Below are positions 4,613-50,161 of a stretch of DNA of 50,161 nucleotides, piece after piece. Both the position numbers and the translations under genes were made by a program. Positions within the stretch are counted from its first letter, which is position 1. Each line of letters starts with the position of its first letter. Origin of the DNA: a virus; IMG/VR virus record IMGVR_UViG_3300036790_000037, positions 1 through 50,161 of that record; one strand, written 5' to 3'. Below the pieces are notes generated by a model. The model had not been told where the DNA came from. It saw only the letters and a list, made by a program, of their open reading frames with translations, and did not search any database.

Positions 4613-4870
4613 ATGATCATGGCGCACTGTAATCAATGCAGCTTCGATTGGAATCCGAGGGTAAAGTCTCCGTCGTGCTGCCCACGGTGCAAGAGATATG
4701 ACTGGTCAGAGCACAAAAAGTCTCAAGGGGTAGTTCGTGAAGACAGGACGCTCAAGTTGCCTGCTCCTGAGAAGTCGAAGAGTTCGGAATGCCCTTGGTG
4801 TCACGAATCGAAGCAGGTAGTTGAATGGGGTGCTGGGCATCGCTGCCCGCCGTGCAATAGGAACTTCTAG
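4613..4870 (+). CDS. Zinc-ribbon protein
   Basis: The start at ATG 4613 (or 4619) is preferred over 4592, which lies inside the -10 box; AGGAA lies about 7 bases upstream. The N-terminus has C-x2-C then C-x2-C (CNQCSFDW...CCPRCKRYDW), a compact zinc ribbon. A second pair near the C-terminus (CPWCHE...CPPCNRNF) makes a possible second ribbon. The N-terminal ribbon resembles the ORF at 8583. It probably binds nucleic acid or protein; the role is unknown. Confidence 0.7.
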   Translation: MIMAHCNQCSFDWNPRVKSPSCCPRCKRYDWSEHKKSQGVVREDRTLKLPAPEKSKSSECPWCHESKQVVEWGAGHRCPPCNRNF

Positions 4871-6605: not shown

Positions 6606-7271
6606 TCAAGCTGCAATCTTCTTATGTCGTCCACGGATCACAGCAAACCCTTCTGGGGCTGGAACTGGCTCGATGGTCTTCATCTCTGCGACACCAAGAT
6701 CCGCCACAAGCATGCTCACGAGAGACCTAAGCCATGCTGCCCGCTTCATCGTCGATGATGGAAGTCTCATGATCCGAGAGCGAACATAGTTGTAGCAGTC
6801 CCTCTTCATCTCCTCTGGGATTTCTGATCGCTCCTCCTTTGGCTCGCGGCGCTGAATCGTATCCACCCACTCATTGATCTTGACCACGGATGTCGTCTTG
6901 GGTGGAGGAGTCTTGTCCAGGCGCTTTATGTTGATCGAATCTACCCCACGCTGCATCACCACCTCAAGTACAGGTGCCGGCAGTCGGTCCACCATGACCA
7001 GATAGAGGTCGATGTAGCGGTAGGCAGTTGCCTTGGATAGTGTCGTCTGGGAGTTCAGGAAGCGCGTGAAGAGGCGTTTGGGCTCAAGAACCTCTCGTAT
7101 ATTGTGCAGGTGCTCTCCGACAGCAAGGCGAGCCACCGTAAGCGAGCGGAGGGACTCGTAGAGCGATACAAACTCAGTCTCGATGAGTTCCTGTTCAGAT
7201 TCAGGGATCGTTTCCCATCCATCCATAGATGAGAGCAGAGAGGCGGCAAGGGGCTTCTGTTTGGCTGACAT
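6606..7271 (-). CDS. DUF3102-like regulatory protein
   Basis: 221 aa, with GAGG 7 bases before the ATG. Residues ~30-95 contain LTVARLAVGEHLHNIREVLEP and then FLNSQTTLSKATAYRYIDLY, the HTH-containing pattern of DUF3102/ParB-like phage proteins. Residues 105-125 and the C-terminus are basic. It is transcribed alone, against its neighbours, from a promoter carrying an inverted repeat. It is probably a transcriptional regulator, perhaps self-regulated. The family match is approximate. Confidence 0.65.
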   Translation of the reverse strand: MSAKQKPLAASLLSSMDGWETIPESEQELIETEFVSLYESLRSLTVARLAVGEHLHNIREVLEPKRLFTRFLNSQTTLSKATAYRYIDLYLVMVDRLPAPVLEVVMQRGVDSINIKRLDKTPPPKTTSVVKINEWVDTIQRREPKEERSEIPEEMKRDCYNYVRSRIMRLPSSTMKRAAWLRSLVSMLVADLGVAEMKTIEPVPAPEGFAVIRGRHKKIAA

Positions 7272-7315
7272 TTCAATACCTCGGTGGCGATCTATCGTTC
7301 TCGTTCATGTGAGGT

Positions 7316-7344
7316 ATGATGCACGATATTCATCGTCTGTTCAA
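7316..7344 (-). promoter_or_regulatory. Leftward promoter with internal operator
   Basis: On the minus strand TTGAAC (7344-7339), 17 bases, then CATCAT (7321-7316). The spacer holds an inverted repeat ACGAT-ATTC-ATCGT (7323-7336). The -10 is weak. Together they suggest a repressible promoter for the regulator gene. Confidence 0.4.
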
Positions 7345-7402
7345 GCGAAAATCACAGTATGTAGGCTACTTCCGACAATATGCTGCCGACATGCCACATA
7401 TC

Positions 7403-7415
7403 TCTCAGATTGAGA
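7403..7415. promoter_or_regulatory. Operator-like palindrome TCTCA-GAT-TGAGA
   Basis: Differs from the site at 1217-1229 at one central position, with TA following in both. It is also nested in wider 6-bp arms TATCTC (7399-7404) and GAGATA (7412-7417). Confidence 0.5.
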
Positions 7416-7422
7416 TAAACGC

Positions 7423-7450
7423 AAAAAATCGGACCCTCGGGTGAGGGTCC
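7423..7450 (-). terminator. Rho-independent terminator, minus strand
   Basis: GGACCCTC (7431-7438) pairs with GAGGGTCC (7443-7450) around a 4-base loop. On the minus strand the stem is followed by GA and six T (7428-7423). No convincing minus-strand gene lies to its right before 8186, so it would stop antisense transcripts or shield the regulator promoter. Confidence 0.8.
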
Positions 7451-7508
7451 ATGCCTTGATGCTCTCTGCTTTGGGTGAAGTTTTGGCGGGATGACGCTCC
7501 GTTTACAG

Positions 7509-7524
7509 ATTGTCTAGATCAAGT
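7509..7524. promoter_or_regulatory. Upstream copy of paired motif ATTGTCTAGATCAAGT
   Basis: Sixteen-base motif matching 7596-7611 at 15 of 16 positions, 87 bp upstream of it. TTGT and CAA half-sites flank a TAGA core, as in a repressor or activator site. Confidence 0.5.
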
Positions 7525-7562
7525 ATGCGGAGGAGGGGATTGCTTGGCATCAACCCCGCCTA

Positions 7563-7591
7563 TTGACAGAATAAATCAACTTTGTTCAAAT
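7563..7591 (+). promoter_or_regulatory. Rightward promoter for the putative large RNA
   Basis: Consensus TTGACA (7563-7568), a 17-base spacer, and TCAAAT (7586-7591; four of six matches to TATAAT). A start near 7598 is expected, inside the second copy of the paired motif. Confidence 0.55.
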
Positions 7592-7595
7592 GTAA

Positions 7596-7611
7596 ATTGT
7601 CTAGAACAAGT
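7596..7611. promoter_or_regulatory. Downstream copy of paired motif ATTGTCTAGAACAAGT
   Basis: Overlaps the expected transcription start of the promoter at 7563-7591, so a bound protein could block initiation or the early transcript. The spacing to the first copy (87 bp) is about eight helical turns, compatible with looping. Confidence 0.5.
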
Positions 7612-8160
7612 CTATGCCACAATTTCCCACACAATTCGTGAAGAAATCGTCATCGCATTCGCGTTTCTCGACACTCCCTGTCGAAAGGCAGGCGGCCAGT
7701 GTAGACGTAGCTTACGTCCCGGTATGGTCGAGAGGCGCAAACCACCGCGTTCCAACGTGGACCTAAATCAGGCGTGCAGGAATGCACTTCTGGTAAGTGT
7801 GGGTCTCGGTTGCTAGCACTTTCCGTGAAGAACGGACGGTGTGGTCGGATGGAACGAACGCTGTTCTGATACCCCGGCCAGGCGGAATATACAGACTTGA
7901 GGGAGCCATCCCAAGAGCCGACGCCTGGTGGAGTCAGACGGCAGAACAATCATCCCTCCCGTACAGCTAGCCTCTATCCACATCAAGGTCCAGAGAGGGG
8001 GTTCTGGGGAGTGAGCGAAATGGCTTTCCGAGCGCGGAAAACGACACCGAGAGGCTATGTCGCCCGACGCGGATATCGTCGAATATAGACGAACAATCGA
8101 ATGAAACGTGTAGGAGTTTGTACTACCACCACCAGTAGTGCGTCTAAAACATTTAGATTC
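7598..8160 (+). ncRNA. Putative large structured noncoding RNA
   Basis: About 560 bases with no credible gene but many perfect stems: 7668-7673/7679-7684, 7704-7709/7713-7718, 7774-7778/7783-7787 (GGAA tetraloop), 7795-7799/7817-7821, 7822-7826/7832-7836, 8025-8030/8035-8040 and 8143-8148/8152-8157. Long-range pairs are 7878-7884/7922-7928 (enclosing hairpin 7901-7904/7909-7912) and 7968-7975/8050-8057 (enclosing 7990-7994/8003-8007 and 8025-8040). Several stems extend or hold together through G-U pairs only on the plus strand, which favours that orientation. It has its own promoter and lies 560 bases before tRNA genes, as known giant phage RNAs (GOLLD, ROOL) often do. No class-specific motif was identified, so it could be one of those, a new class, or a long leader of the 8186 gene. 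Confidence 0.5.
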
Positions 8161-8185
8161 AAAATCAAATACGACGGGAGAGGTT

Positions 8186-8515
8186 ATGGTTAGCAACGAA
8201 CTGCTTCAAGAAGCTGCCGATCCAGGAATGAATCATAGGTTGAACAACGATGATGTCTGCGACATGGCTAGAGAACTAAAGGCACGGAGAGAAGTAGATC
8301 GATGGGTTCCAGTAGGGGAGAACATTCCTAATCACGGACAAAAAGTCATATGCAATGGCTACTGGGGAGTTACTTACGCGGAGTGCTATATCGACTTCGA
8401 CAACAAGCTGAAGTTTGGCAATCCTCGCGGTGGCTGTGGAAATATTCTTGGCGTCACCCACTGGCGAAATCTCCCTGCACCTCCTGATGGCTACAAGGTC
8501 TTGGCTGTCGAATAG
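8186..8515 (+). CDS. DUF551-domain protein
   Basis: 109 aa. ATG 8186 follows GGGAGAGG; the longer frame from 8138 overlaps RNA stems and lacks a site. Residues 42-105 carry the DUF551 layout: RWVPVGENIPNHGQKVIC, central Tyr/Trp strands, then GVTHWRNLPAPP. DUF551 is a small phage domain of unknown function, common in accessory regions. It is the first protein gene after the structured stretch and probably shares its transcript. Confidence 0.85.
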   Translation: MVSNELLQEAADPGMNHRLNNDDVCDMARELKARREVDRWVPVGENIPNHGQKVICNGYWGVTYAECYIDFDNKLKFGNPRGGCGNILGVTHWRNLPAPPDGYKVLAVE

Positions 8516-8545
8516 TCTCGTACCGGACAACTCCAGCGATAAACA

Positions 8546-8575
8546 TTGTCCTTCACGTCGCTTTTGTAGTACATT
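8546..8575 (+). promoter_or_regulatory. Weak rightward promoter candidate
   Basis: TTGTCC (8546-8551), 18 bases, TACATT (8570-8575). The ATG at 8583 would be near the start point, giving a leaderless or very short leader. It would also drive the tRNA genes. Confidence 0.3.
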
Positions 8576-8582
8576 GAACCCA

Positions 8583-8933
8583 ATGGATTGCCACTGCCTC
8601 AGATGCGATAACGATTGGATCTCGCGAAAGGAAGCGCCTAAAAAGTGCCCTTCTTGTCAGAATCCCAACTGGAACCGCGAAGTTCGCAGGAAAAAGCGCG
8701 ATAAACTGGTGGTGGAAACAAGCCGAGATAGCTCAGTGGTAGAGCAACTGCCTCGTAAGCAGTCGGTCCTCGGTTCAAATCCGAGTCTTGGCTCCAATTT
8801 CGAGGAAGTGGCCGTGGGGACGAATCCGGCTCTTGTAGTAGGTGATTCTGGTTCGACTCCAGACGCTTCCGCCAATGAACGACTTGGGCTTGCAAAGAGG
8901 AGAGCGATGGATCTGCTCGGAGGATTGATTTGA
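8583..8933 (+). CDS. Zinc-ribbon ORF running into the tRNA genes
   Basis: ATG 8583 opens MDCHCLRCDNDWISRKEAPK then KCPSCQNPNW, a C-x2-C/C-x2-C ribbon like that of the gene at 4613, and a basic RREVRRKKRDK-type segment. No SD is visible. Nothing stops the frame before the tRNA, so it translates through 8722-8874 to TGA at 8933 (116 aa), although only the first ~45 residues look protein-like. Either the ribbon gene lost its own stop when the tRNAs arrived, or the mRNA is cut by tRNA processing. Real product length is uncertain. Confidence 0.4.
   Translation: MDCHCLRCDNDWISRKEAPKKCPSCQNPNWNREVRRKKRDKLVVETSRDSSVVEQLPRKQSVLGSNPSLGSNFEEVAVGTNPALVVGDSGSTPDASANERLGLAKRRAMDLLGGLI
8722..8796 (+). tRNA. 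tRNA-Thr (anticodon CGT), CCA encoded
   Basis: Full cloverleaf: acceptor GCCGAGA/TCTTGGC (one G-U), D stem GCTC/GAGC, anticodon stem ACTGC/GCAGT with loop CTCGTAA, T stem CTCGG/CCGAG with loop TTCAAAT, discriminator T and CCA. The anticodon CGT reads ACG, a codon frequent in the late genes here. Confidence 0.95.
8804..8874 (+). tRNA. Degenerate tRNA-like element, possibly tRNA-Gln (TTG)
   Basis: Strong acceptor stem GGAAGTG (8804-8810)/CGCTTCC (8864-8870), perfect T arm TCTGG-TTCGACT-CCAGA and encoded GCCA end. The 5' half is abnormal: the D arm can only be a 3-bp stem, the anticodon stem CCGGC/GTAGG has one mismatch, and C replaces U at position 33 if the anticodon is TTG. It could be an active odd tRNA, a decaying one, or a processing signal. 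Confidence 0.55.
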
Positions 8934-9310
8934 CAATAGATAAAAAGGCAAGGATGGTAATAAAAAAACTCCTCCCGGAGGGACAACATTCTTGGTCATT
9001 GAGGGATCCAGATCACATCATAAGGATGGGAGCAGTCCTAAATCCGGTAACCATATTTGTGTTCAAGTCAAAATATAAGCCGTGGAGAGGTAGATCAATC
9101 ACATTCACCACAATGATGCCAATGACGCCTGAACAGTGCATCGACATGGTTCTAGGAGAAGGGGTAAACGATTCATGGTGCGAATCTCTGAATATCGATC
9201 CCTTCTACATAAAAACCAGAAAGCTGAACTTGCTTCCGATGCCATTCGACTATCTAGGAGAAGGAGGTAAAAAGCGATGGTTATCGATGATGCAGCGAGA
9301 ATCCGAGTAA
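8930..9310 (+). CDS. Hypothetical protein (126 aa)
   Basis: Start TTG 8930 is preferred because GGAGG lies 6 bases upstream; ATG 8954 is an alternative. It mixes basic N-terminus (DKKARMVIKKLLPEG) and beta-rich centre with several aromatic residues. No family is recognised. It overlaps the HTH gene by 34 bases and opens the long rightward late operon. Confidence 0.65.
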   Translation: MTIDKKARMVIKKLLPEGQHSWSLRDPDHIIRMGAVLNPVTIFVFKSKYKPWRGRSITFTTMMPMTPEQCIDMVLGEGVNDSWCESLNIDPFYIKTRKLNLLPMPFDYLGEGGKKRWLSMMQRESE

Positions 9311-9522
9311 TCCGAGCAATTCTCGGAATGGACTCGAAGACCTTCTCTTCCCGCGTGGGAATCTCGCCTGGGACATGCACAGCATGGGAGAAGGGCAGAG
9401 CAAGCCCCCAGCGCGACAATCGTAAAGTGCTCGCTGAGCTTTGCCAGTCGTCAGGAATCGCCTTCTTGCCTTCGGGTATGCCAGTTCCAATGTCAGACCT
9501 ACTCTCAATACAGGAGAACTAA
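9277..9522 (+). CDS. XRE-like helix-turn-helix protein
   Basis: 81 aa, with AAGGAGG 9 bases before the ATG. Residues 7-45 fit an HTH of the Xre type: ARIRVIRAILGMDSKTFSSR, then VGISPGTCTAWEKGRASPQ, then a helix with LAELCQ. The C-terminal tail is Pro/Ser-rich. Placed directly before the terminase genes, it is a candidate late-gene or packaging-site regulator. It is distinct from the repressor at 47789. Confidence 0.75.
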   Translation: MVIDDAARIRVIRAILGMDSKTFSSRVGISPGTCTAWEKGRASPQRDNRKVLAELCQSSGIAFLPSGMPVPMSDLLSIQEN

Positions 9523-9906: not shown

Positions 9907-10127
9907 TGAGTGACAACGAACTCCTCGAACGCATCGCCGTCGCCGTCGAAAGAATGGCAGAAGAACTCTGCAAGCCGCTCCCGTACCAAAAGCGGCCGGC
10001 AGTCCTCGGAACCGCAACGTACAACGAAGAAGACCGCACAAGGGAAAGCCTCAGAGCGCAGCTCGAAGCCAAAAAGTCCACGAAACCGAAGGGAGGAGAT
10101 ACTTCGACGCTTAGACGTGGATTCTGA
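9906..10127 (+). CDS. Small helical protein upstream of terminase (73 aa)
   Basis: AAGGGGTA precedes ATG 9906. The frame has strong third-position C/G preference and begins MSDNELLERIAVAVERMAEE, a helix typical of small phage proteins. The other open frame from GTG 9910 over the same bases gives a Ser/Lys-rich shadow. The 3' end overlaps the small-terminase frame. Confidence 0.65.
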   Translation: MSDNELLERIAVAVERMAEELCKPLPYQKRPAVLGTATYNEEDRTRESLRAQLEAKKSTKPKGGDTSTLRRGF

Positions 10128-10695
10128 AGTTCTGGCGCAGCAGCCCACGCTTGCTCCGCGACTGAAGCAGAATGGAGTCAAGATTGAGCAGATGGTTGAA
10201 GTTCTCCGTTGGGACGATCAACCTGAATCTCAATCTTTCGTAGCAATCTGGGATGAGAACACCCCAGCTACGAGGTCATTGGCAGGTATCGAGGCACTTG
10301 GATTGGGAGCAGGACTAACTTCGCGTCGACTTTGGGAGGTATTTCAGGGTGCCCTTCTGGTTCAGTCTCGGGAGTCTATTTCAGCGCAGATCGCGCTGGC
10401 TCAACCTAAGATTGTTGCGGTCACAATCCGGGGAGCACTGAAGGCAAAGGGTCATGCTGACCGCGAGCATCTGTTCAAAGCGAGTGGATTCCTGCCGGTA
10501 CCCAAGGGTTCGACTATCACGATCAATCCAGGGATGCAGCAGGCGCTCCCGCAGGGTCACAGCGAGGAAGATGGAAGCGGTGGAGACCTTGAGCCCTGCG
10601 ACGACTTCCTTATGCGTGCAAGCCGCGCCATGAATGCCAAACGACTCGAAGCCCCTAAAGATCCAGAAGTTATCGATGCTGAAGAGGTCGAATAG
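10117..10695 (+). CDS. Putative small terminase subunit
   Basis: The open frame extends back to GTG 9910, but protein-like sequence starts around LDVDSEVLAQQPTLAPRLK. GTG 10117 is the best start after a GGGAGGAG at ~10091, though spacing is long. The body has helical, HTH-compatible segments (RLKQNGVKIEQMVEVLRW), a central region where other TerS oligomerise, and an acidic tail (DPEVIDAEEVE). The position directly before TerL is the main argument. It would recognise the packaging site. A frameshift fusion with the 73-aa protein is possible. Confidence 0.6.
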   Translation: MDSEVLAQQPTLAPRLKQNGVKIEQMVEVLRWDDQPESQSFVAIWDENTPATRSLAGIEALGLGAGLTSRRLWEVFQGALLVQSRESISAQIALAQPKIVAVTIRGALKAKGHADREHLFKASGFLPVPKGSTITINPGMQQALPQGHSEEDGSGGDLEPCDDFLMRASRAMNAKRLEAPKDPEVIDAEEVE

Positions 10696-12845
10696 TGTTT
10701 GCGGATTCTAAGGTCGAAGAGAAGATTGATCTCCTAGAAAAAGAATTTGGCTGGAGGCCTCGCCCACATTCTTTGGATGAAGTCAATATGTGGCTCAAAG
10801 AGCTTTCGACCGCATTTGAGGAGGATGGCAAGGGAAACATCTTCATGGCCCGCAAGCTGACGAAGGCAGAGCATCGCTTCATCGCGAACGAGCGTGCCAT
10901 GGTTGCCTGCTCATGCGGCTATTTCCTGACTCGCTACTACTACATCAAGGCCAAGAGCCGGATCCTTCGCTTCACGTTCCGGCAGGGGCAGTGGATTCTC
11001 TGGCGGATGCTACAGGAATTGGACGCGATGGGCGTGTCCAAGATGGTCCAGATCCTCAAGGCTCGCCAGCTTGGGATTTCTACCATGATCGAGGGAATCA
11101 TGACATGGGGATCGCTGTTCATTCCTGGTGTGAGTTCCCAGATCGGATCTTCGGATGGCCAGAAGACCCAGATCATGCTCGGGATGATGACTCTGGCGAT
11201 CGATCAGCTTCCTCCGTGGTTGCCTCCAACCCAGACACGCGCAAAGAAGGCTTCCGACCGTGCATTGCTGGAGTTCGACCGCATCGGATCGCTCATCATG
11301 GTGCAGCCCGGATCGATGATGGGCGGCATGGGACAGGGTTCGACTCCGACGATGGTTCACCTGTCGGAGGTGAGCCAGTTCACGAAACCAGTGCAGCAGC
11401 TCGACGAGGGACTATTCAAGGCACTCCACGAGGGTCCAGAGCTTGTCGTCTTGTTGGAGTCTACGGGTGATGCTGGACACCGCTCCGCATGGTGGTGGAA
11501 AGAACAATGGATCGCCAACCGGGACAATTACTGGAATGGAGGGGCGAAGTTCCTTCCCGTGTTCCTTCCGTGGCATACAACGCCAGAGCTTTATCCTGGC
11601 GAAGCATGGCTGAAGAAGTACCCGATGCCAGAAGGGTTCACTCCTAACGATGACACCGTTTCGCATATACGACGTGCAGAGGCTTACGTCCACAATACGG
11701 AAATGCTTAGTCGTGTCATTGGAAAAGACTGGAAAATGCCAATCGAACAGCAGTGGTATTGGCAGTTCAACCATGAAGACCACAAGCGCCGCAGAGTCGA
11801 AAAGTCATGGTACAGGCAGATGCCCTGCGACGACTACGAGAGCCTTTTGGGAGAGCGCGATAAGGTGTACTCAGAGGACGCTCTGGATGCCGTGGATAAG
11901 TCCGTTGCCCTCATGGAGGAGACCGGAGTGTACATGCTTGCCGGGGATGGCGTGGAGGATAAGCGAGAGCCCAAGGATGGTGTTATCTGGTATGGGGAAG
12001 ACGCTCCACCTCGGCTGCGCTGTCATTGGATCACGCCGAAGAAGGACAAAGTGGAATGGATGTGGGTTCCGCTGAAGCCTGTACCCGAGCGTGAGTTCGA
12101 TCCGCTTGGGAAACTTCTTATCTATGAGGAGGCGCGTGAAGGGTTTGACTACTCAATGGGCGTGGATACTGGTACTGGTGTTGGGGGCGATAGGTCCACC
12201 ATTTGCGTCACCCGTCATGGGACGAATGAGTTCCCGGATGAGCAGGTTGCAGAGTTCGCGTCCGATGACATCCCAACCGCGGAACTCTATGCCTGGATCG
12301 CGGCAATAGCCTGTCTGTATAGCGTAAAGATGGTGGAAAAACCGCATCCAAAGATTGCCATTGAAATGCGGCGCAAGTTCGGAGACCTACCATATCACCA
12401 GACGCGACTACTTGGATTCAAGCGTTGGCACGAGTGGGGACATGGATTCGACCGCAAGACATTCCATGAAAAGGTAGGCAAACACGGGCGTATTGGATGG
12501 TATACGAACGAGTGGAGCCGCCCAATGCTGCTCTCGCGCTTCCAGCACGCAGTTGAGAATGGATGGTATATCGTCCGCTCGAAGTGGCTTGCGGAAGAAA
12601 TGAAGGAATTGGAGCAGAAAGTTACCTCAAGTGGCAAAACGAGGGTCGATCATGCATCTGGAAGGCACGATGACCGCGTTTGGGGGGCTGGAATGTCGTA
12701 CTTTACGCTTCATCAGCACGACGAAATGATGTCCAGAGCACAAAAACGGTACGACCGTCCCAAAGAGAGTGGCATAATCATTGACAGAGGCCCAGCAGCG
12801 ATGACTATCGTTGTTGGTGGTGGTGGAAATTGGAAGAAGCGTTGA
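10695..12845 (+). CDS. terL: Terminase large subunit
   Basis: 716 aa. GTG start overlaps the preceding TAG by one base. The ATPase has a deviant Walker A, KARQLGIST (residues 122-130), and TMVHLSEVSQF (219-229) at the Walker B position with Glu. The C-terminal RNase H-like nuclease shows YSMGVDTGTGVGGDRS with metal-binding Asp near residue 480, and DHASGRHDDRVWG with the terminal Asp pair. The long linker between ATPase and nuclease makes it larger than typical ~500-600 aa TerL proteins. It drives ATP-dependent DNA packaging through the portal and cuts the concatemer. Confidence 0.93.
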   Translation: MFADSKVEEKIDLLEKEFGWRPRPHSLDEVNMWLKELSTAFEEDGKGNIFMARKLTKAEHRFIANERAMVACSCGYFLTRYYYIKAKSRILRFTFRQGQWILWRMLQELDAMGVSKMVQILKARQLGISTMIEGIMTWGSLFIPGVSSQIGSSDGQKTQIMLGMMTLAIDQLPPWLPPTQTRAKKASDRALLEFDRIGSLIMVQPGSMMGGMGQGSTPTMVHLSEVSQFTKPVQQLDEGLFKALHEGPELVVLLESTGDAGHRSAWWWKEQWIANRDNYWNGGAKFLPVFLPWHTTPELYPGEAWLKKYPMPEGFTPNDDTVSHIRRAEAYVHNTEMLSRVIGKDWKMPIEQQWYWQFNHEDHKRRRVEKSWYRQMPCDDYESLLGERDKVYSEDALDAVDKSVALMEETGVYMLAGDGVEDKREPKDGVIWYGEDAPPRLRCHWITPKKDKVEWMWVPLKPVPEREFDPLGKLLIYEEAREGFDYSMGVDTGTGVGGDRSTICVTRHGTNEFPDEQVAEFASDDIPTAELYAWIAAIACLYSVKMVEKPHPKIAIEMRRKFGDLPYHQTRLLGFKRWHEWGHGFDRKTFHEKVGKHGRIGWYTNEWSRPMLLSRFQHAVENGWYIVRSKWLAEEMKELEQKVTSSGKTRVDHASGRHDDRVWGAGMSYFTLHQHDEMMSRAQKRYDRPKESGIIIDRGPAAMTIVVGGGGNWKKR

Positions 12846-44171: not shown

Positions 44172-44348
44172 TCATTCATAGATGCCGCGTTCTTTATTGC
44201 CCTTGTATCCACGCCGCTTCGCCTCTTCTGCGGCGATGTGGCGCAACTCGGGAGTTTCGCTCTTCATGAGCGGGACGATGAACCGATTGAACGATTCAAG
44301 CGTGCCGCACTGGGTGATCAGCTCACGGAAGACAGTTGCCTCGTGCAT
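44172..44348 (-). CDS. Small hypothetical protein (58 aa)
   Basis: ATG 44348 lies inside the exonuclease 3' end (31-base overlap). Contains MHEATVFRELITQCGTLESF and a basic end (AEEAKRRGYKGNKERGIYE). No family is recognised. The frame shows codon use like its neighbours. Confidence 0.6.
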   Translation of the reverse strand: MHEATVFRELITQCGTLESFNRFIVPLMKSETPELRHIAAEEAKRRGYKGNKERGIYE

Positions 44349-44965
44349 AGCTCTTTCAGGCTCTCAATCTGGAAGTTGATCTCAGCTTCAAACCGTATAA
44401 CCTCGGCCTCCATCTCGGAGATCTTCGCGTCATCCCGTTCCAGGCGAACGATGAAGAGTTGGAGGTCTTCGGGCATCCGGGGGTCGAAGCTCACGAAGTC
44501 CAGCCATTGACGATCCGAGCAACGCATCTCCCACAGCATCTGGGGAACGTAATCCTCGGGCACGACACCGGCGAGCATGTAGCCGATGTGCGTCGTCGTT
44601 TTGGGGCATTTGATCTGGATGCCGCCACCCTCCCAGAGCCCGTCAGGAGAGCATCCAGCGAAGTCGAACTTGGGATGGAGGACGAACCCTACCTCGTCCA
44701 AGAAACGCCCTGTCTCGACCGTGTAAGCGGCGCGAGCATACTTCTCCTGATCGGTACCCCACCGCATCTCCGGAGTCACGAACTTCTCTTCCCACTTCCC
44801 GGTAAGGCGCTCGGCCATCAGCTCGACGCGGTAATCCCGTCGCGCTGCGCTCTCGCCCCCCTTCTTTAGGTACGACAGCACGTCGGCGATGCGTGACGCG
44901 GTTATACGGCCGCATCTCGCCTGTTTCCACTCATCTGTTCCCTGAATGCATTCGACGATTCTCAT
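44318..44965 (-). CDS. YqaJ-type (lambda exonuclease-like) recombinase nuclease
   Basis: 215 aa, GGAGAAACT precedes the ATG. GTDEWKQARCGRITASR, then MRWGTDQEKYARAAY, GCSPDGLWEGGG and IQIKCPKTTTHIG give the family's fold: Arg-Gly-xxx-Ala-Ser, the Asp of SPDG, and xIxIKCP. In lambda exonuclease the residue two before the Lys is Glu; here it is Gln (CAG codon). The enzyme normally resects one strand from dsDNA ends to load the annealing protein encoded in the same operon. Confidence 0.88.
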   Translation of the reverse strand: MRIVECIQGTDEWKQARCGRITASRIADVLSYLKKGGESAARRDYRVELMAERLTGKWEEKFVTPEMRWGTDQEKYARAAYTVETGRFLDEVGFVLHPKFDFAGCSPDGLWEGGGIQIKCPKTTTHIGYMLAGVVPEDYVPQMLWEMRCSDRQWLDFVSFDPRMPEDLQLFIVRLERDDAKISEMEAEVIRFEAEINFQIESLKELCTRQLSSVS

Positions 44966-45141
44966 AGTTTCTCCGCAAACGATATGCCAGACGCGTCAAT
45001 TGATGCTTCGGTATCGAGTTCGATACGCTTACAGGAAGATTCCGCGGACTCCCAAGCCTGCGCGACATCCCCTGATGTCGTCGCTCCATGCACTGTGAAT
45101 CCTTCTCCTCCGTAATCCTTGATGAGCACATGAATTCTCAT
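44962..45141 (-). CDS. Small hypothetical protein (59 aa)
   Basis: AGGAGCGAA precedes ATG 45141; the TGA overlaps the exonuclease ATG. Reads MRIHVLIKDYGGEGFTVHGA then AQAWESAESSCKRIELDTEA: a small beta-alpha protein. Not assigned. Coupled at both ends. Confidence 0.65.
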   Translation of the reverse strand: MRIHVLIKDYGGEGFTVHGATTSGDVAQAWESAESSCKRIELDTEASIDASGISFAEKL

Positions 45142-45302
45142 TTCGCTCCTTTCGCAATCAGCACAAGTGCCTTGTTCATGGTTTGGTTGATACCAAAATC
45201 CCGAGTGTGGATTCCGCGCGTACCCTTGGCTGCTTTCCGGCAAAGGTCGTAGCGGTTTGGAACCGCACGAAGTGCTGCGTACACATATCCCGACCTGTCC
45301 AT
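45138..45302 (-). CDS. Small basic protein (54 aa)
   Basis: ATG 45302 overlaps the TGA of the coiled-coil gene (TGATG), and its own stop overlaps the next gene (ATGA). Composition is basic and helical (ALRAVPNRYDLCRKAAKGTR). The role is unknown, but the coupling makes it very likely real. Confidence 0.6.
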   Translation of the reverse strand: MDRSGYVYAALRAVPNRYDLCRKAAKGTRGIHTRDFGINQTMNKALVLIAKGAK

Positions 45303-46315
45303 CAGTACACCACCTTGACGTTCGGGATCTTTCCCTGGGCGATGGCGGTAACCACCTTCTTTGCGTGATCCGCAGACAGGCCAAGTGCAGAGAGAGCAGT
45401 AAGAGCCTCATTGTTGATCTTCGTTTTGTGCTCCTTGTCCTTTTCCCGCCTTCTCTGCTCCGCCGCCTCGGCAGCTTCGGCATCCGCGACCCGTTTACGT
45501 TCAGCCTCTACCGCTGCGACCTTCTCCTGCTCGGCCCGCTCCGCTGCATCCTTGACGTCCTGCTCGGCCTTCACAGCGCGTGCCTCGGCTGCTTCCGCAT
45601 CTGCCTTTGCCTTCGCTTCACGGTAGCGAGAATCACGCTCCGCCTTCTCGGTTGCCTCGCGGGCGATACGCTCTTCACGCTCGCGCTGTTCCCGTGCTGC
45701 GTTCTCCGCTCGAAGGGTAGCGAGTTCAGCTTGCTCCTTCTCGTGCTGCTCGCGCTTTGCCAGAGCCTCTCCCATCTGCTTCAGGGCTAGAGCCTTCACG
45801 CCTGCTGCTTTCGTGGAAAACTCCTGCCAATCCAGGCCATCGTCCGCGATTTCATTCATGCGGTCGCGAATGGCCTCAGCGGAGTAGTTGGGCCACGTCT
45901 GCATCGCAGAGTTTCCACAGTCGGAAATCTCCTTTAGGTTGGCTTCGTGCTTAGCGACGCGATCCTTCTCCGCGTTCTCCCAGTCCGTGAGGGGCTTCCT
46001 GATTTCTTTCTGGAGAGACTCCAAGAAGTCCCAGCTAGTTTTGCCTACCGCGTCGATGGCGGCAAGACGTTTCTTTTCGCCAGAAACCAAGTCCTTGCGG
46101 CGACCGTCAATGTAGGTCTTGGAGCGAGCCACCGCGTGGGCGACAGAGGCTAGATCCGACCGATTTCCGGGGGTCGAGATATCCAGTCCGGCAGCCTGCT
46201 CGTTGGCCAAGTCACGGATGTATTCAAGAATTGGTGTGATGACCTCGTTCGTGAAGAGGTCGGCGGGGGCGAGTGCTTCAATGCGTGACAGCGCGAGAGT
46301 GTTCTCGATAGCCAT
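45302..46315 (-). CDS. Coiled-coil recombination-operon protein
   Basis: 337 aa. The N-terminal helical domain (~1-150, ENTLALSRIEALAPADLF; GRRKDLVSGEKKRLAAID) is followed by a long Ala/Glu/Arg coiled coil (~180-305) and a C-terminal ALSALGLSADHAKKVVTAIA, IPNVKVVY unit. Proteins like this occur between annealing protein and exonuclease in many phage recombination operons. Likely an accessory for assembling the recombination complex; specific function not known. Confidence 0.7.
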   Translation of the reverse strand: MAIENTLALSRIEALAPADLFTNEVITPILEYIRDLANEQAAGLDISTPGNRSDLASVAHAVARSKTYIDGRRKDLVSGEKKRLAAIDAVGKTSWDFLESLQKEIRKPLTDWENAEKDRVAKHEANLKEISDCGNSAMQTWPNYSAEAIRDRMNEIADDGLDWQEFSTKAAGVKALALKQMGEALAKREQHEKEQAELATLRAENAAREQREREERIAREATEKAERDSRYREAKAKADAEAAEARAVKAEQDVKDAAERAEQEKVAAVEAERKRVADAEAAEAAEQRRREKDKEHKTKINNEALTALSALGLSADHAKKVVTAIAQGKIPNVKVVY

Positions 46316-47043
46316 TACTTTTCCTTTTCTGCCGACAGTTCGGCCTTGCGCTTGTTGTAGGCGTCGATATAAGCCTTCTGCTTGGGTTGGTCGTCCTTCG
46401 TCTTCTTCGTCGTCTTCATCGCGCCAGAGTAGACGGTCTGGAGGTCGGCAAGGTCGCCCGCAGCGAGAATGTCTGCCACGAGCATCTGGACGGCATCAGG
46501 AAGCTCAGAACCCTTCCCATCGTCGTCTTTGATCCCCGTTGCCGTTCCGGTGGCTCCTAGAAGCGTGTACCGCTCCAGATAGGAGACGGCAGAAGCGATG
46601 GCTTGGATGGCGTTCTTCCCACCCGAAGTATCGGGGCCGGACGAAAGCGGAGTCTCTTCGCTGTATGTTCCCAAGCTGAGGATGCACGTTACAGTGATTA
46701 GGCCGCCCTCCTGTTTGGGAACCCAACGGTGCGTGATGCCGAAGCTAGCTAGCCGAGCCACAATCGCATCGCACACAACGTGCAATTCGGAATGGCTGTA
46801 TTCGGTCGTCCCGAACTTAACCTGCTTGTTCTTTTCGATCTTCGGTGGATCGAGCTTGAACTTCGCCATTGCTTCGCGGAATAAACGCTTGTCATCGCGA
46901 TATATCCTCCTGTCCTCCATATCTTCCCACTTCTCTGCTAGGCCGACCAGTGCAGCTATCTGCTCGATGCTTGCCCCCTTGTCCACTGCCGACTGGAGAA
47001 TGGACAAGGGGTTTACTTCCATCACTGCAAGTTCGTTAGACAT
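46315..47043 (-). CDS. ERF-family single-strand annealing protein
   Basis: 242 aa. ATG 47043 has GGAGG 6 bases upstream; the stop overlaps the next ATG (TAATG). The core is ERF-like: EAMAKFKLDPPKIEKNKQVK, then TTEYSHSELHVVCDAIVARL, a beta region with GGLITVTCILSLGTYSEE, SGGKNAIQAIASAVSYLERY. ERF proteins bind ssDNA and pair complementary strands in phage recombination with the YqaJ exonuclease. The C-terminus is basic and disordered (KTTKKTKDDQPKQK). Confidence 0.88.
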   Translation of the reverse strand: MSNELAVMEVNPLSILQSAVDKGASIEQIAALVGLAEKWEDMEDRRIYRDDKRLFREAMAKFKLDPPKIEKNKQVKFGTTEYSHSELHVVCDAIVARLASFGITHRWVPKQEGGLITVTCILSLGTYSEETPLSSGPDTSGGKNAIQAIASAVSYLERYTLLGATGTATGIKDDDGKGSELPDAVQMLVADILAAGDLADLQTVYSGAMKTTKKTKDDQPKQKAYIDAYNKRKAELSAEKEK

Positions 47044-47341
47044 TGGCGGCCTCCGCGTTGGCGAGTACCGCATCGGCGCGGATGTCCATTGCAGAAAGCA
47101 GGCCGCGTACGGAACTGTAGTCCTGAATGTCCAGTGCGCCTTGAGCCATTGCGATGGCTCCGGTAATACCCCTGATAACCTGCTCCACCTCATCGAACGC
47201 ATTCAGCTTGCGGGCGATCTCGTTGGCTCGCTTCCCTGCGTCGCCATCTATTCCCGGAGTTATTCCGGCGATAGGAATCCCATCGCACATCAAGGAGGCA
47301 CCATCCATGAGATCCCATATCTCAACCGTCCACTTAGCCAT
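47036..47341 (-). CDS. Small hypothetical protein (101 aa)
   Basis: Start at ATG 47341 (GGAGGCTTCCA upstream). MAKWTVEIWDLMDGASLMCD, then RANEIARKLNAFDEVEQVIR, mostly helical after a beta start. It precedes the annealing protein in the operon, overlapping it by eight bases. Family not recognised. Confidence 0.65.
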   Translation of the reverse strand: MAKWTVEIWDLMDGASLMCDGIPIAGITPGIDGDAGKRANEIARKLNAFDEVEQVIRGITGAIAMAQGALDIQDYSSVRGLLSAMDIRADAVLANAEAANV

Positions 47342-48239: not shown

Positions 48240-48391
48240 AGCATCCCCAAGTAGGTTGTTTGCCGGTCGTCGCTCCACCAAATCACTTGAGGTTTGATGG
48301 TTGTATTTGGGATGACTGAATCATCGAAGCAAATGACTAACGAATCATCCGGGGCATTTTCCAAATATCGCTTCAAGTCTTTCACTGTCAT
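48236..48391 (-). CDS. Small hypothetical protein (51 aa)
   Basis: ATG 48391 overlaps the ParB-gene stop (TGATG), and its TGA overlaps the next ATG (ATGA). VKDLKRYLENAPDDSLVICF is the pattern of small phage proteins with a beta-alpha start ('L...L...PDD..V...D'). Function unknown. Confidence 0.65.
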   Translation of the reverse strand: MTVKDLKRYLENAPDDSLVICFDDSVIPNTTIKPQVIWWSDDRQTTYLGML

Positions 48392-49152
48392 CACGCACCC
48401 ACCGCTTCACGCACGGCGCGGATGGTGTCCTTGTGGATCTCGTATACCATCACATCGGGCTGGTGATCGCACTCGGCCAGAAGAACCAAAAGCGCAGACT
48501 TGAGACTGGGCTTCGCCGCAACTACCGCAGGTGGAGCCTCGCGCCTAACGTCCGCTTTCGTGATCTTTCCCGGCTTGGCCAGCACCTTCTTTTGCGACTC
48601 CTTCGACAGCTTCGCAATCTCCTTCGCCGCTGAAAGGGGAGCGCGACCCGAACGTACAGCCGTTTCAGCCTCGGGGCTCAATTGGAGCAAGGCAAGGCGA
48701 CCATGAATCCAGGATGGCGAGGTGCGGTAAGCTTCTGCCGCTTCCGCCTCGGTCATCTGGTACACGTTGATGAGCCTTTGGATGTTGTAAGCGTCATCCA
48801 TCGGGGTAGTCGCGTTGCGCACGCGATTTTCCTCGATGTTGGCAAGAAACGCTTGCTTCTCCGTCAGTTGAGTGTAGGAGCAGCGGAGCGCGAGCGACTT
48901 CGGGGCCATCTGGTTCTTGTTGATGTGAGTGACTGCCCGCCAGCGACTGAAGCCCGCGACCAGTATGGGCCTCCCAGCCGCTTTGCGGATGGTAATGGGC
49001 TGGAGTTGTCCGTGTACCAAGATGCTCTCTACGAGGTCGTAGATGGGTGGGAGTTCGTGCCTGCCGTTCAGCTCGGATGGAACTTCGATGTGCTCCGGCA
49101 AGAATAGATATTCGCTCGTTCGGGTGCCTTCTACGTCAAATGATACGGCCAT
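48391..49152 (-). CDS. ParB/Srx-domain protein
   Basis: 253 aa, AGGAGAACCGCAAA before the ATG. EHIEVPSELNGRHELPPIYD, HGQLQPITIRKAAGRPILVA and GFSRWRAVTH correspond to the ParB N-terminal domain (GQ.QPI...., G.RR-like). ENRVRNATTPMDDAYNIQRL matches the EN.xR box, followed by an HTH-like KorB region (YRTSPSWIHGRLALLQL). The C-terminus is basic then helical (KSALLVLLAECDHQ). It may bind centromere-like sites or regulate transcription. No ParA gene is present. Confidence 0.85.
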   Translation of the reverse strand: MAVSFDVEGTRTSEYLFLPEHIEVPSELNGRHELPPIYDLVESILVHGQLQPITIRKAAGRPILVAGFSRWRAVTHINKNQMAPKSLALRCSYTQLTEKQAFLANIEENRVRNATTPMDDAYNIQRLINVYQMTEAEAAEAYRTSPSWIHGRLALLQLSPEAETAVRSGRAPLSAAKEIAKLSKESQKKVLAKPGKITKADVRREAPPAVVAAKPSLKSALLVLLAECDHQPDVMVYEIHKDTIRAVREAVGA

Positions 49153-49504: not shown

Positions 49505-50161
49505 TACTTTACCTCTTGCCATTCTGCCGTTCCGTCTGCCGCGATCTGAATTGCGTAGTATGTGTCAGCATTGATCCCGTCCTCCCCGACGTGGGCAACG
49601 AGGATACGGTTACGCTTCGCTTTCTCGTCGTAGTAGGACGCGGCAAAGCATCCGTTCTCGCCAGCCAGGACTACACAGTTGCGACCGGCCGCCATAGCAA
49701 TGGTGTCCTTGCCTTTTGCTTCCGCCGTGCTGGAGTTGCCGGAGGACGCCGCCTTGCTGGAGGTGCCGGAGGACGCCGCCTTGCTGGAGTGGCCGGAGGA
49801 CGCCGCCGTGCTGGAGTGGCCGGAGGACGCCGCCGTGCTGGAGTCGCCGGAGGACGCCGCCTTGCTGTAGTTGCCGGAGGACGCCGCCTTGCTGGAGTGG
49901 CCGGAGGACGCCGCCGTGCTGGAGTGGCCGGAGGACGCCGCCTTGCTGGAGTCGCCGGAGGACGCCGCCTTGCTGGAGTCGCCGGAGGACGCCGCCGTGC
50001 TGGAGGTGCCGGAGGACGCCGCCTTGCTGGAGTCGCCGGAGGACGCCGCCGTGCTGTAGTCGCCGGAGGAGGCTGCCGTGCTGTAGGAGCCGGAGGACGC
50101 TGCCTTGCTGGAGTCGCCGGAGGAGGCTGCCGTGCTGTAGGAGCCGGAGGACGCCGCCTTG
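49504..50161 (-). CDS. DUF7666-like repeat protein, C-terminal part (starts at 639)
   Basis: Open from the right edge to TAA at 49504. The visible protein is 16 repeats of nine residues, (T/K)AASSG(D/N/T/H/S)SS or YS, then a 62-residue cap: AAGRNCVVLAGENGCFAASY, YYDEKAKRNRILVAHVGEDG, INADTYYAIQIAADGTAEWQ. The cap has the features of the end of DUF7666-type proteins (G.N..V...G.N, D(T)xY.....DG...). It joins in frame to 639-1 through the 109-base overlap. The unrelated open frame on the plus strand exists because the unit length is a multiple of three. Confidence 0.85.
   Translation of the reverse strand, partial: KAASSGSYSTAASSGDSSKAASSGSYSTAASSGDYSTAASSGDSSKAASSGTSSTAASSGDSSKAASSGDSSKAASSGHSSTAASSGHSSKAASSGNYSKAASSGDSSTAASSGHSSTAASSGHSSKAASSGTSSKAASSGNSSTAEAKGKDTIAMAAGRNCVVLAGENGCFAASYYDEKAKRNRILVAHVGEDGINADTYYAIQIAADGTAEWQEVK
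49729..50161. repeat. 27-bp coding tandem repeat, right block (16 units)
   Basis: Sixteen units start every 27 bp from 49729, ending one base into a seventeenth. The last 109 bases equal bases 1-109. Variation is mainly at the 7th-9th bases (D, N, T, S or H codon on the minus strand) and the last bases (T or K). After collapsing the overlap the gene has about 22 units in total. Confidence 0.95.

Follow-up and report, generated by a model that had tools for sequence, protein, structure and literature searches.

Our analysis of the window, which is the whole of a 50,161-base virus record from IMG/VR, points to a pair of facing RNAs where the packaging and structural operon of the phage begins. 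One of them, on the plus strand, would start near 7598, fold extensively and continue as the 5' leader of the operon, which comprises DUF551, zinc-ribbon, HTH and terminase genes. From overlapping back-to-back promoters, the minus strand would yield a small RNA of ~140 nt, consisting of a hairpin and then an intrinsic terminator, and the loop of this RNA would be the reverse complement of the first 16-20 nt of the leader. We consider it reasonably probable that this is a packaging-operon leader RNA controlled by a divergent antisense RNA, like the RNAs of P4, P1 and N15. The same two-RNA layout is found, with differing matched sequences, in seven related contigs, which suggests an undescribed RNA switch.

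The gap that holds these elements (7445-8185, 741 nt) retained zero ORFs in codon-usage gene finding, and it forms the switch point between leftward genes and a rightward operon of DUF551, zinc-ribbon, HTH, and small and large terminase genes. Four of these genes are assigned as follows.

8186-8515, plus strand: DUF551-like gene, first after the leader (Pfam PF04448, 27.7 bits, cut-off 22)
9277-9522, plus strand: XRE-type HTH gene (Pfam HTH_3; tblastn, listing and alignment of homologues)
9910-10695, plus strand: probable small terminase subunit (syntenic conserved gene immediately 5' of the large subunit)
10695-12845, plus strand: large terminase subunit (30% identity over 97% coverage to the terminase annotated in Tunturiibacter phage Tunturi_1)

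The function of the 9910-10695 product is a probable one, taken from its position. The host of the phage is probably an acidobacterium, given the identity between its large terminase and that of Tunturi_1. As the earlier note had stated for 7598-8160, the gap contains no credible protein frame: besides the empty gene-finding result, ORFs within 7445-8185 matched no Pfam family above cut-off, and the longest ORF of the gap had no tblastn match in phages. A protein-coding reading of 7598-8160 was accordingly rejected.

The predicted promoters, repeats and small RNA at the 5' edge of the gap are arranged as follows.

7563-7591, plus strand: putative promoter of the long RNA (TTGACA, 17 nt, TCAAAT, with TG before the -10), read from the sequence
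7568-7596, minus strand: promoter-like site of the small RNA (TTTACA, 17 nt, TATTCT), overlapping the plus promoter, from a promoter scan
7596-7617, plus strand: repeat copy 2, ATTGTCTAGAACAAGTCTATGC, lying at the long RNA's 5' end, from local alignment to copy 1
7509-7528, minus strand: repeat copy 1, whose minus strand is the antisense segment in the small RNA loop, from alignment and minus-strand fold
7424-7561, minus strand: predicted divergent small antisense RNA of ~140 nt, from the promoter-like site, the terminator and the hairpin-plus-terminator layout
7485-7560, minus strand: hairpin around copy 1, closed by GGCGGG (7485-7490) and CCCGCC (7555-7560), from the fold
7430-7451, minus strand: predicted intrinsic terminator of the small RNA, TGGACCCTCACCCGAGGGTCCG ATTTTTT, from a terminator search

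The consensus -35/-10 pair that had been placed at this edge was borne out in its position and spacing (TTGACA at 7563, 17 nt, TCAAAT at 7586), and -35/-10-like sequences of the relatives align with it at the corresponding position. The plus-strand -10 boxes are weak, which counts against the leader-plus-antisense reading, and the weak -10 of the window is why the consensus scanner did not list this promoter. On the minus strand, the promoter-like site, hairpin and terminator together lead to the prediction of a ~140-nt small RNA with a loop antisense to the start of the long RNA. It is because the repeats are direct that the minus-strand RNA would carry the antisense of the first bases of the long RNA. 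This facing unit (~7561-7424) lies outside the stretch covered by the earlier note and was missed there. The two copies in the window, ATTGTCTAGATCAAG and ATTGTCTAGAACAAG (starting at 7509 and 7596), align with a local score of 14.5, as good in 0 of 1000 shuffles, and no further copies beyond chance were found in the genome.

Relatives were traced via synteny and the neighbouring HTH gene, and the analysis covers eight loci, namely the window and the viral contigs L004, L005, L006, L093, L105, L106 and L117. The terminases of L004, L005 and L006 are 66-79% identical to that of the window; L093 was found through a small-terminase homologue, L105 and L106 by search with the conserved HTH gene, and L117, together with the partial L121, through a conserved 18-mer. 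An ORF-free gap lies at or near the syntenic place in L004, L005, L006 and L093. Other searches yielded no additional carriers: neither the region nor the RNA of the relatives showed DNA similarity to phages and plasmids, protein and pattern searches starting from the left neighbour and the RNA of the window gave no match, HTH searches in phages and plasmids reached generic XRE proteins alone, and no prophage with this terminase type was confirmed in cellular genomes. Tunturi_1, the nearest cultured phage, was considered as a carrier and rejected, as its syntenic gap is unstructured (z -0.37) and the top-ranked repeats in it include no comparable pair. Non-coding RNA goes unmentioned in the publication on the Tunturi viruses.

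All eight loci share one layout, in which a minus-strand intrinsic terminator, a hairpin holding repeat copy 1 and back-to-back promoters are followed by a long plus-strand RNA that lacks ORFs and carries copy 2 at its 5' end, and then by HTH and packaging genes. A homologue of the HTH gene lies downstream of the RNA unit in every case. The unit is found upstream of three unrelated large terminases: the type present in the window, a Terminase_6N type shared by L105 and L117, and in L106 a protein of 848 aa that we take for a terminase by position only.

The direct repeat is contig-specific, 11-20 nt in length and different in sequence at most of the eight loci, e.g., GTGCTTAGGCGAAAGAA / GTGCTTAGGCAAAAGAA in L006, TGCCAAGAGTCTACAAA / TGCCAAGAGTGTACAAA in L106 and GTCGAGTCACGCA / GTCGAGTCATGCA in L004. 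Its placement is constant, with copy 1 upstream of the plus promoter and copy 2 at 24-43 nt after the start of the -35 at all eight. When each repeat pair was compared with 1000 shuffles, five loci had at most one shuffle as good, while L004 had 21, L117 had 117 and L093 had 315; the repeats of L093 and L117 are not individually significant. The combined Fisher p of 7e-11 is somewhat generous, as the first pairs were already known when the regions were selected. The two copies diverge in concert, and L117 has a three-base insertion relative to L093 in both of them (TGCCATTAGGA / TGCCACTAGGA versus TGCCAGGA / TGCCAGCGA). The closing stem of the copy 1 hairpin abuts the promoter (combined p 0.004) and its letters differ by contig, being GCGGGGTG/CACCCCGC in L006, GTGGGGTG/CACCCCAC in L005 and GGCGGG/CCCGCC in the window. 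Minus-strand folding gives the copy 1 hairpin and then a terminator-like hairpin at 8/8 loci, with a strict terminator rule passed by six, and no intrinsic terminator was found on the plus strand between the promoter and the HTH gene at any of the eight. The small RNAs of the eight loci are too diverged in alignment for pair counting.

The repeats might instead be DNA operators of the nearby XRE-type HTH repressor, with copies that flank and overlap the plus promoter and diverge along with the repressor; the long RNA would then be a structured leader and there would be no antisense action. We judge this to be unlikely, though it deserves serious weight. It stays alive because the XRE-type HTH gene, whose product could bind the repeats, is always downstream, and because the window (z -0.66) and several relatives show no unusual RNAduplex energy between small RNA and leader. 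An operator role would also suit the overlap of copy 2 with the predicted start of the long RNA and the presence of other direct repeats, of a GCGCAA type, in the same gap of distant relatives. The repeats are not clear palindromes, however. Gaps of 1-4 nt can separate the two copies in alignment, and the copies lie 63-94 nt apart with no helical phasing, which suits RNA pairing better than protein operators. In addition, copy 1 always sits in a hairpin that is followed by a minus-strand terminator, an arrangement needed by an RNA and not by operators.

Turning to the leader half of the proposed antisense-controlled unit, the long RNA of the window is predicted to contain the following elements.

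7598-8185, plus strand: long structured RNA (leader), predicted start ~7598, from the lack of ORFs, the fold z, the genome rank and the lack of a plus-strand terminator
7630-7674, plus strand: 5' segment common to relatives, CACACAATTCGTGAAG ... CATTCGCGTTTCTCGAC, from a 5' profile of six relatives
7661-7738, plus strand: helix A, 12 bp, GCGTTTCTCGAC / GTCGAGAGGCGC (arms 7661-7672 and 7727-7738), enclosing two hairpins, pairing probability 0.97
8120-8141, plus strand: 3' hairpin GTACTAC-CACCACCA-GTAGTGC (8120-8126 and 8135-8141), pairing probability 0.94

The plus strand of 7598-8160 has an MFE of -201.8 (z -3.02, as good in 1 of 100 shuffles), and the longer stretch 7424-8190 reaches a z of -4.70. 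The minus strand of 7598-8160 folds weakly (z -0.98), and a minus-strand gene or RNA spanning these positions was rejected on this ground. Among 168 genome windows of the same length (563 nt), both strands included, 7598-8160 on the plus strand ranks first with a z of -3.45, against a plus-strand background with a mean of -0.11 and a standard deviation of 1.36. This rank, and the lack of any ORF support, confirm the earlier note's basic observation of a gene-free, structured stretch at 7598-8160. The two long-range stems it had listed are both present, the 7-bp stem 7758-7764/7986-7992 with a pairing probability of 0.62 and the 8-bp stem 7797-7804/7976-7983 with 0.64. Better supported than these are helix A, for which 0 of 200 shuffles offered an equally good partner, an 8-bp helix at 7877-7884/7922-7929 (pairing probability 0.96) and the 3' hairpin, which has a counterpart, CACCAC-CACCAATT-GTGGTG, at the RNA end of L005. 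The term "giant" was generous for an RNA of ~560-590 nt, while the claim of a structured RNA itself stands. Since it has no terminator of its own, this RNA is best read as a leader.

Four of the relatives provide covariation evidence for a long RNA. Over ~400 nt, the RNA regions of L105 and L106 show homology to the L093 region (E 4e-33 and 6e-50), and homology among L093, L105, L106 and L117 spans E 4e-33 to 4e-53. RNAalifold on these four sequences gave 71 pairs, of which 25 have both partners changed. In a core of 39 pairs, 94% of cells are paired and 15 pairs have changes on both sides; 0 of 500 shuffles reach any of the covariation measures, and sliding the partners reduces pairing to 35-53%. 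The covariation of this long RNA is strong for a set of four sequences only, which is not exhaustive. The family folds as a multi-branched structure and has no Rfam match, and would make a new entry for RNA family databases. Its core model, R1, scores its own members at 161-178 bits; against the window it finds short fragments at best (≤8.7 bits, on the other strand), and it does not recognise L004, L005 or L006. Covariation among homologous regions, proposed earlier as a check, was thus found in relatives whose core model does not recognise the window. Weak R1 matches in L023, L013, L119, L124 and L125 are short fragments and were taken as chance.

Because R1 misses the window, the window RNA is either a strongly diverged member of this family or a separate long RNA governed by the same control unit. 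The sole link of the window, L004, L005 and L006 to the R1 family is the 5' unit. In favour of kinship are synteny, the alignment of the window with L006 across the promoter block (nhmmer, E 0.0018 in 2.5 Mb) and the 5' profile, by which the window would join the four-member family. The profile built from six relatives ranked window positions 7581-7674, which lie at the syntenic place, above all other sequences outside the training set (E 0.46), and adding the window to the profile made without L006 improved the score of L006 from 0.0037 to 6.9e-5.

We take the earlier note's view to be that the RNA is free-standing and not a leader, a large ornate phage RNA like GOLLD or ROOL, which are large structured phage RNAs often located near tRNAs (PMC12286853). 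We regard this as quite improbable. The extensive fold, the lack of ORFs, the downstream tRNA gene and the multi-branched, strongly covarying relatives would all be expected of such an RNA. The window RNA is shorter than GOLLD or ROOL, however, and goes with an HTH and terminase operon, not with tRNAs. The whole window gave no Rfam match at gathering and 7250-9000 gave none with E as high as 5, so the RNA does not belong to GOLLD, ROOL or OLE. The proximity to tRNA genes holds to the extent that one tRNA, Thr, was called (8722-8796, after the DUF551 gene and inside the zinc-ribbon ORF); it is the only one called, and no tRNA lies near the unit in L004-L006, L093, L105, L106 or L117. The unit also has no 3' terminator and is always upstream of the same HTH gene. 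An operon leader under antisense RNA thus fits the anatomy better than a free-standing giant RNA. The earlier interpretation is partly supported, and what survives of it is a structured plus-strand RNA that starts near 7598 and falls in no described family.

A type I toxin-antitoxin system, in which the long RNA would encode a small hydrophobic toxin and the divergent small RNA would serve as antitoxin, is very improbable. The geometry is that of zorO-orzO, tisB-istR and shoB-ohsC, where a divergent small RNA is likewise complementary over a short stretch to the 5' region of a structured RNA (18 nt for zorO-orzO and 19 nt for shoB-ohsC [PMC3919570], compared with 11-20 nt here). Unlike in those systems, no conserved toxin ORF was found in the long RNAs here: small ORFs with a ribosome-binding site gave none that is conserved, and the single hydrophobic candidate, in L106, has no counterpart elsewhere. 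Equally remote is a non-functional intergenic spacer with a chance fold. In its favour, a z near -3 is a modest value for a single sequence and fold scores are weak in L005, L006 and Tunturi_1; against it, the fold ranks 1/168, the layout is kept in eight loci and four relatives covary.

Phage antisense RNAs complementary to leader sequences are described for P1 and P7 (c4), N15, and P4 and PhiR73 (CI RNA) (PMC7567579). The window would likewise encode a small phage RNA complementary to a phage operon leader, a complementarity implied here by the direct repeats. In P4, P1 and P7, small RNA and target derive from the same transcript, whereas here the small RNA is predicted on the opposite strand, divergent and with its own terminator, and the leader is far longer, folded and followed by a packaging operon. 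In ColE1, too, the 5' end of a long structured RNA (RNA II) has a small antisense RNA (RNA I), which is transcribed from the opposite strand of the same bases; in our case the complement is a separate repeat copy ~90 nt upstream. RNA leaders head other phage operons as well, as in the lambda late operon (6S RNA at pR', Q) and the HK022 put RNA; in contrast to these, neither an intrinsic terminator nor a gene for an antiterminator was seen here, and an antisense unit is added.

We infer that both RNAs are transcribed, that they pair and that pairing affects the late genes. Binding of the small RNA to the extreme 5' end of the leader would keep the leader, and hence the packaging operon, from completion, the leader being blocked or destroyed ahead of late-gene synthesis by processing, misfolding or premature termination. 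The outcome would be phage-specific control as in P4, P1 and N15. Most large phage RNAs have no assigned function, since they come without partners; here the RNA has a predicted partner and a fixed place before packaging genes, which makes its function testable by compensatory mutation. Concerted divergence of the two copies would represent an RNA-only counterpart of repressor-operator specificity. More tentatively, these loci may define a new phage regulatory class, a large multi-branched leader of virion-assembly operons, exchanged among phages with unrelated terminases and set by a divergent antisense RNA whose fast-diverging loop gives each phage its own RNA-based immunity or late-gene specificity. 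A small literature search did not find the combination of a long covarying leader and a divergent antisense RNA before packaging genes.

Several further observations were made in these contigs. In the window, the tRNA-Thr lies in frame within an intact zinc-ribbon ORF (8583-8933, 116 aa) that continues through it, and zinc-ribbon relatives in other contigs are without a tRNA. The stretch 8803-8873, 3' of it, is also tRNA-like: its acceptor stem has 7 bp, its T arm is perfect and CCA is encoded. It is not among the ARAGORN calls, its D arm seems very short and a cloverleaf is not favoured in its free fold. An endonuclease VII-type HNH gene directly 3' of the long RNA in L093 (7555-7881) is possibly a mobile insertion at the site. 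The distant relatives L016 (3424), L023 (6134) and L030 (258) carry tandem GCGCAA-type repeats in the syntenic gap that have the look of protein operators. L124, a Clostridia MAG contig, contains two facing GGAGCCGTGCGT(A/G)AGCAA motifs, at 4672-4720 (plus) and 7720-7675 (minus), which resemble the RNA family core; the pattern is at chance level in the collection, yet two in 8 kb is odd. Both ends of the window contain 27-nt tandem arrays (1-264 and 49722-50158), and since its 109-base terminal direct repeat sits within these arrays, circularity of the contig is doubtful. ParB-like, YqaJ-type exonuclease and ERF recombinase genes in 48391-49152 and 44318-47202 indicate that the lifestyle of the phage may be plasmid-like or recombination-based.
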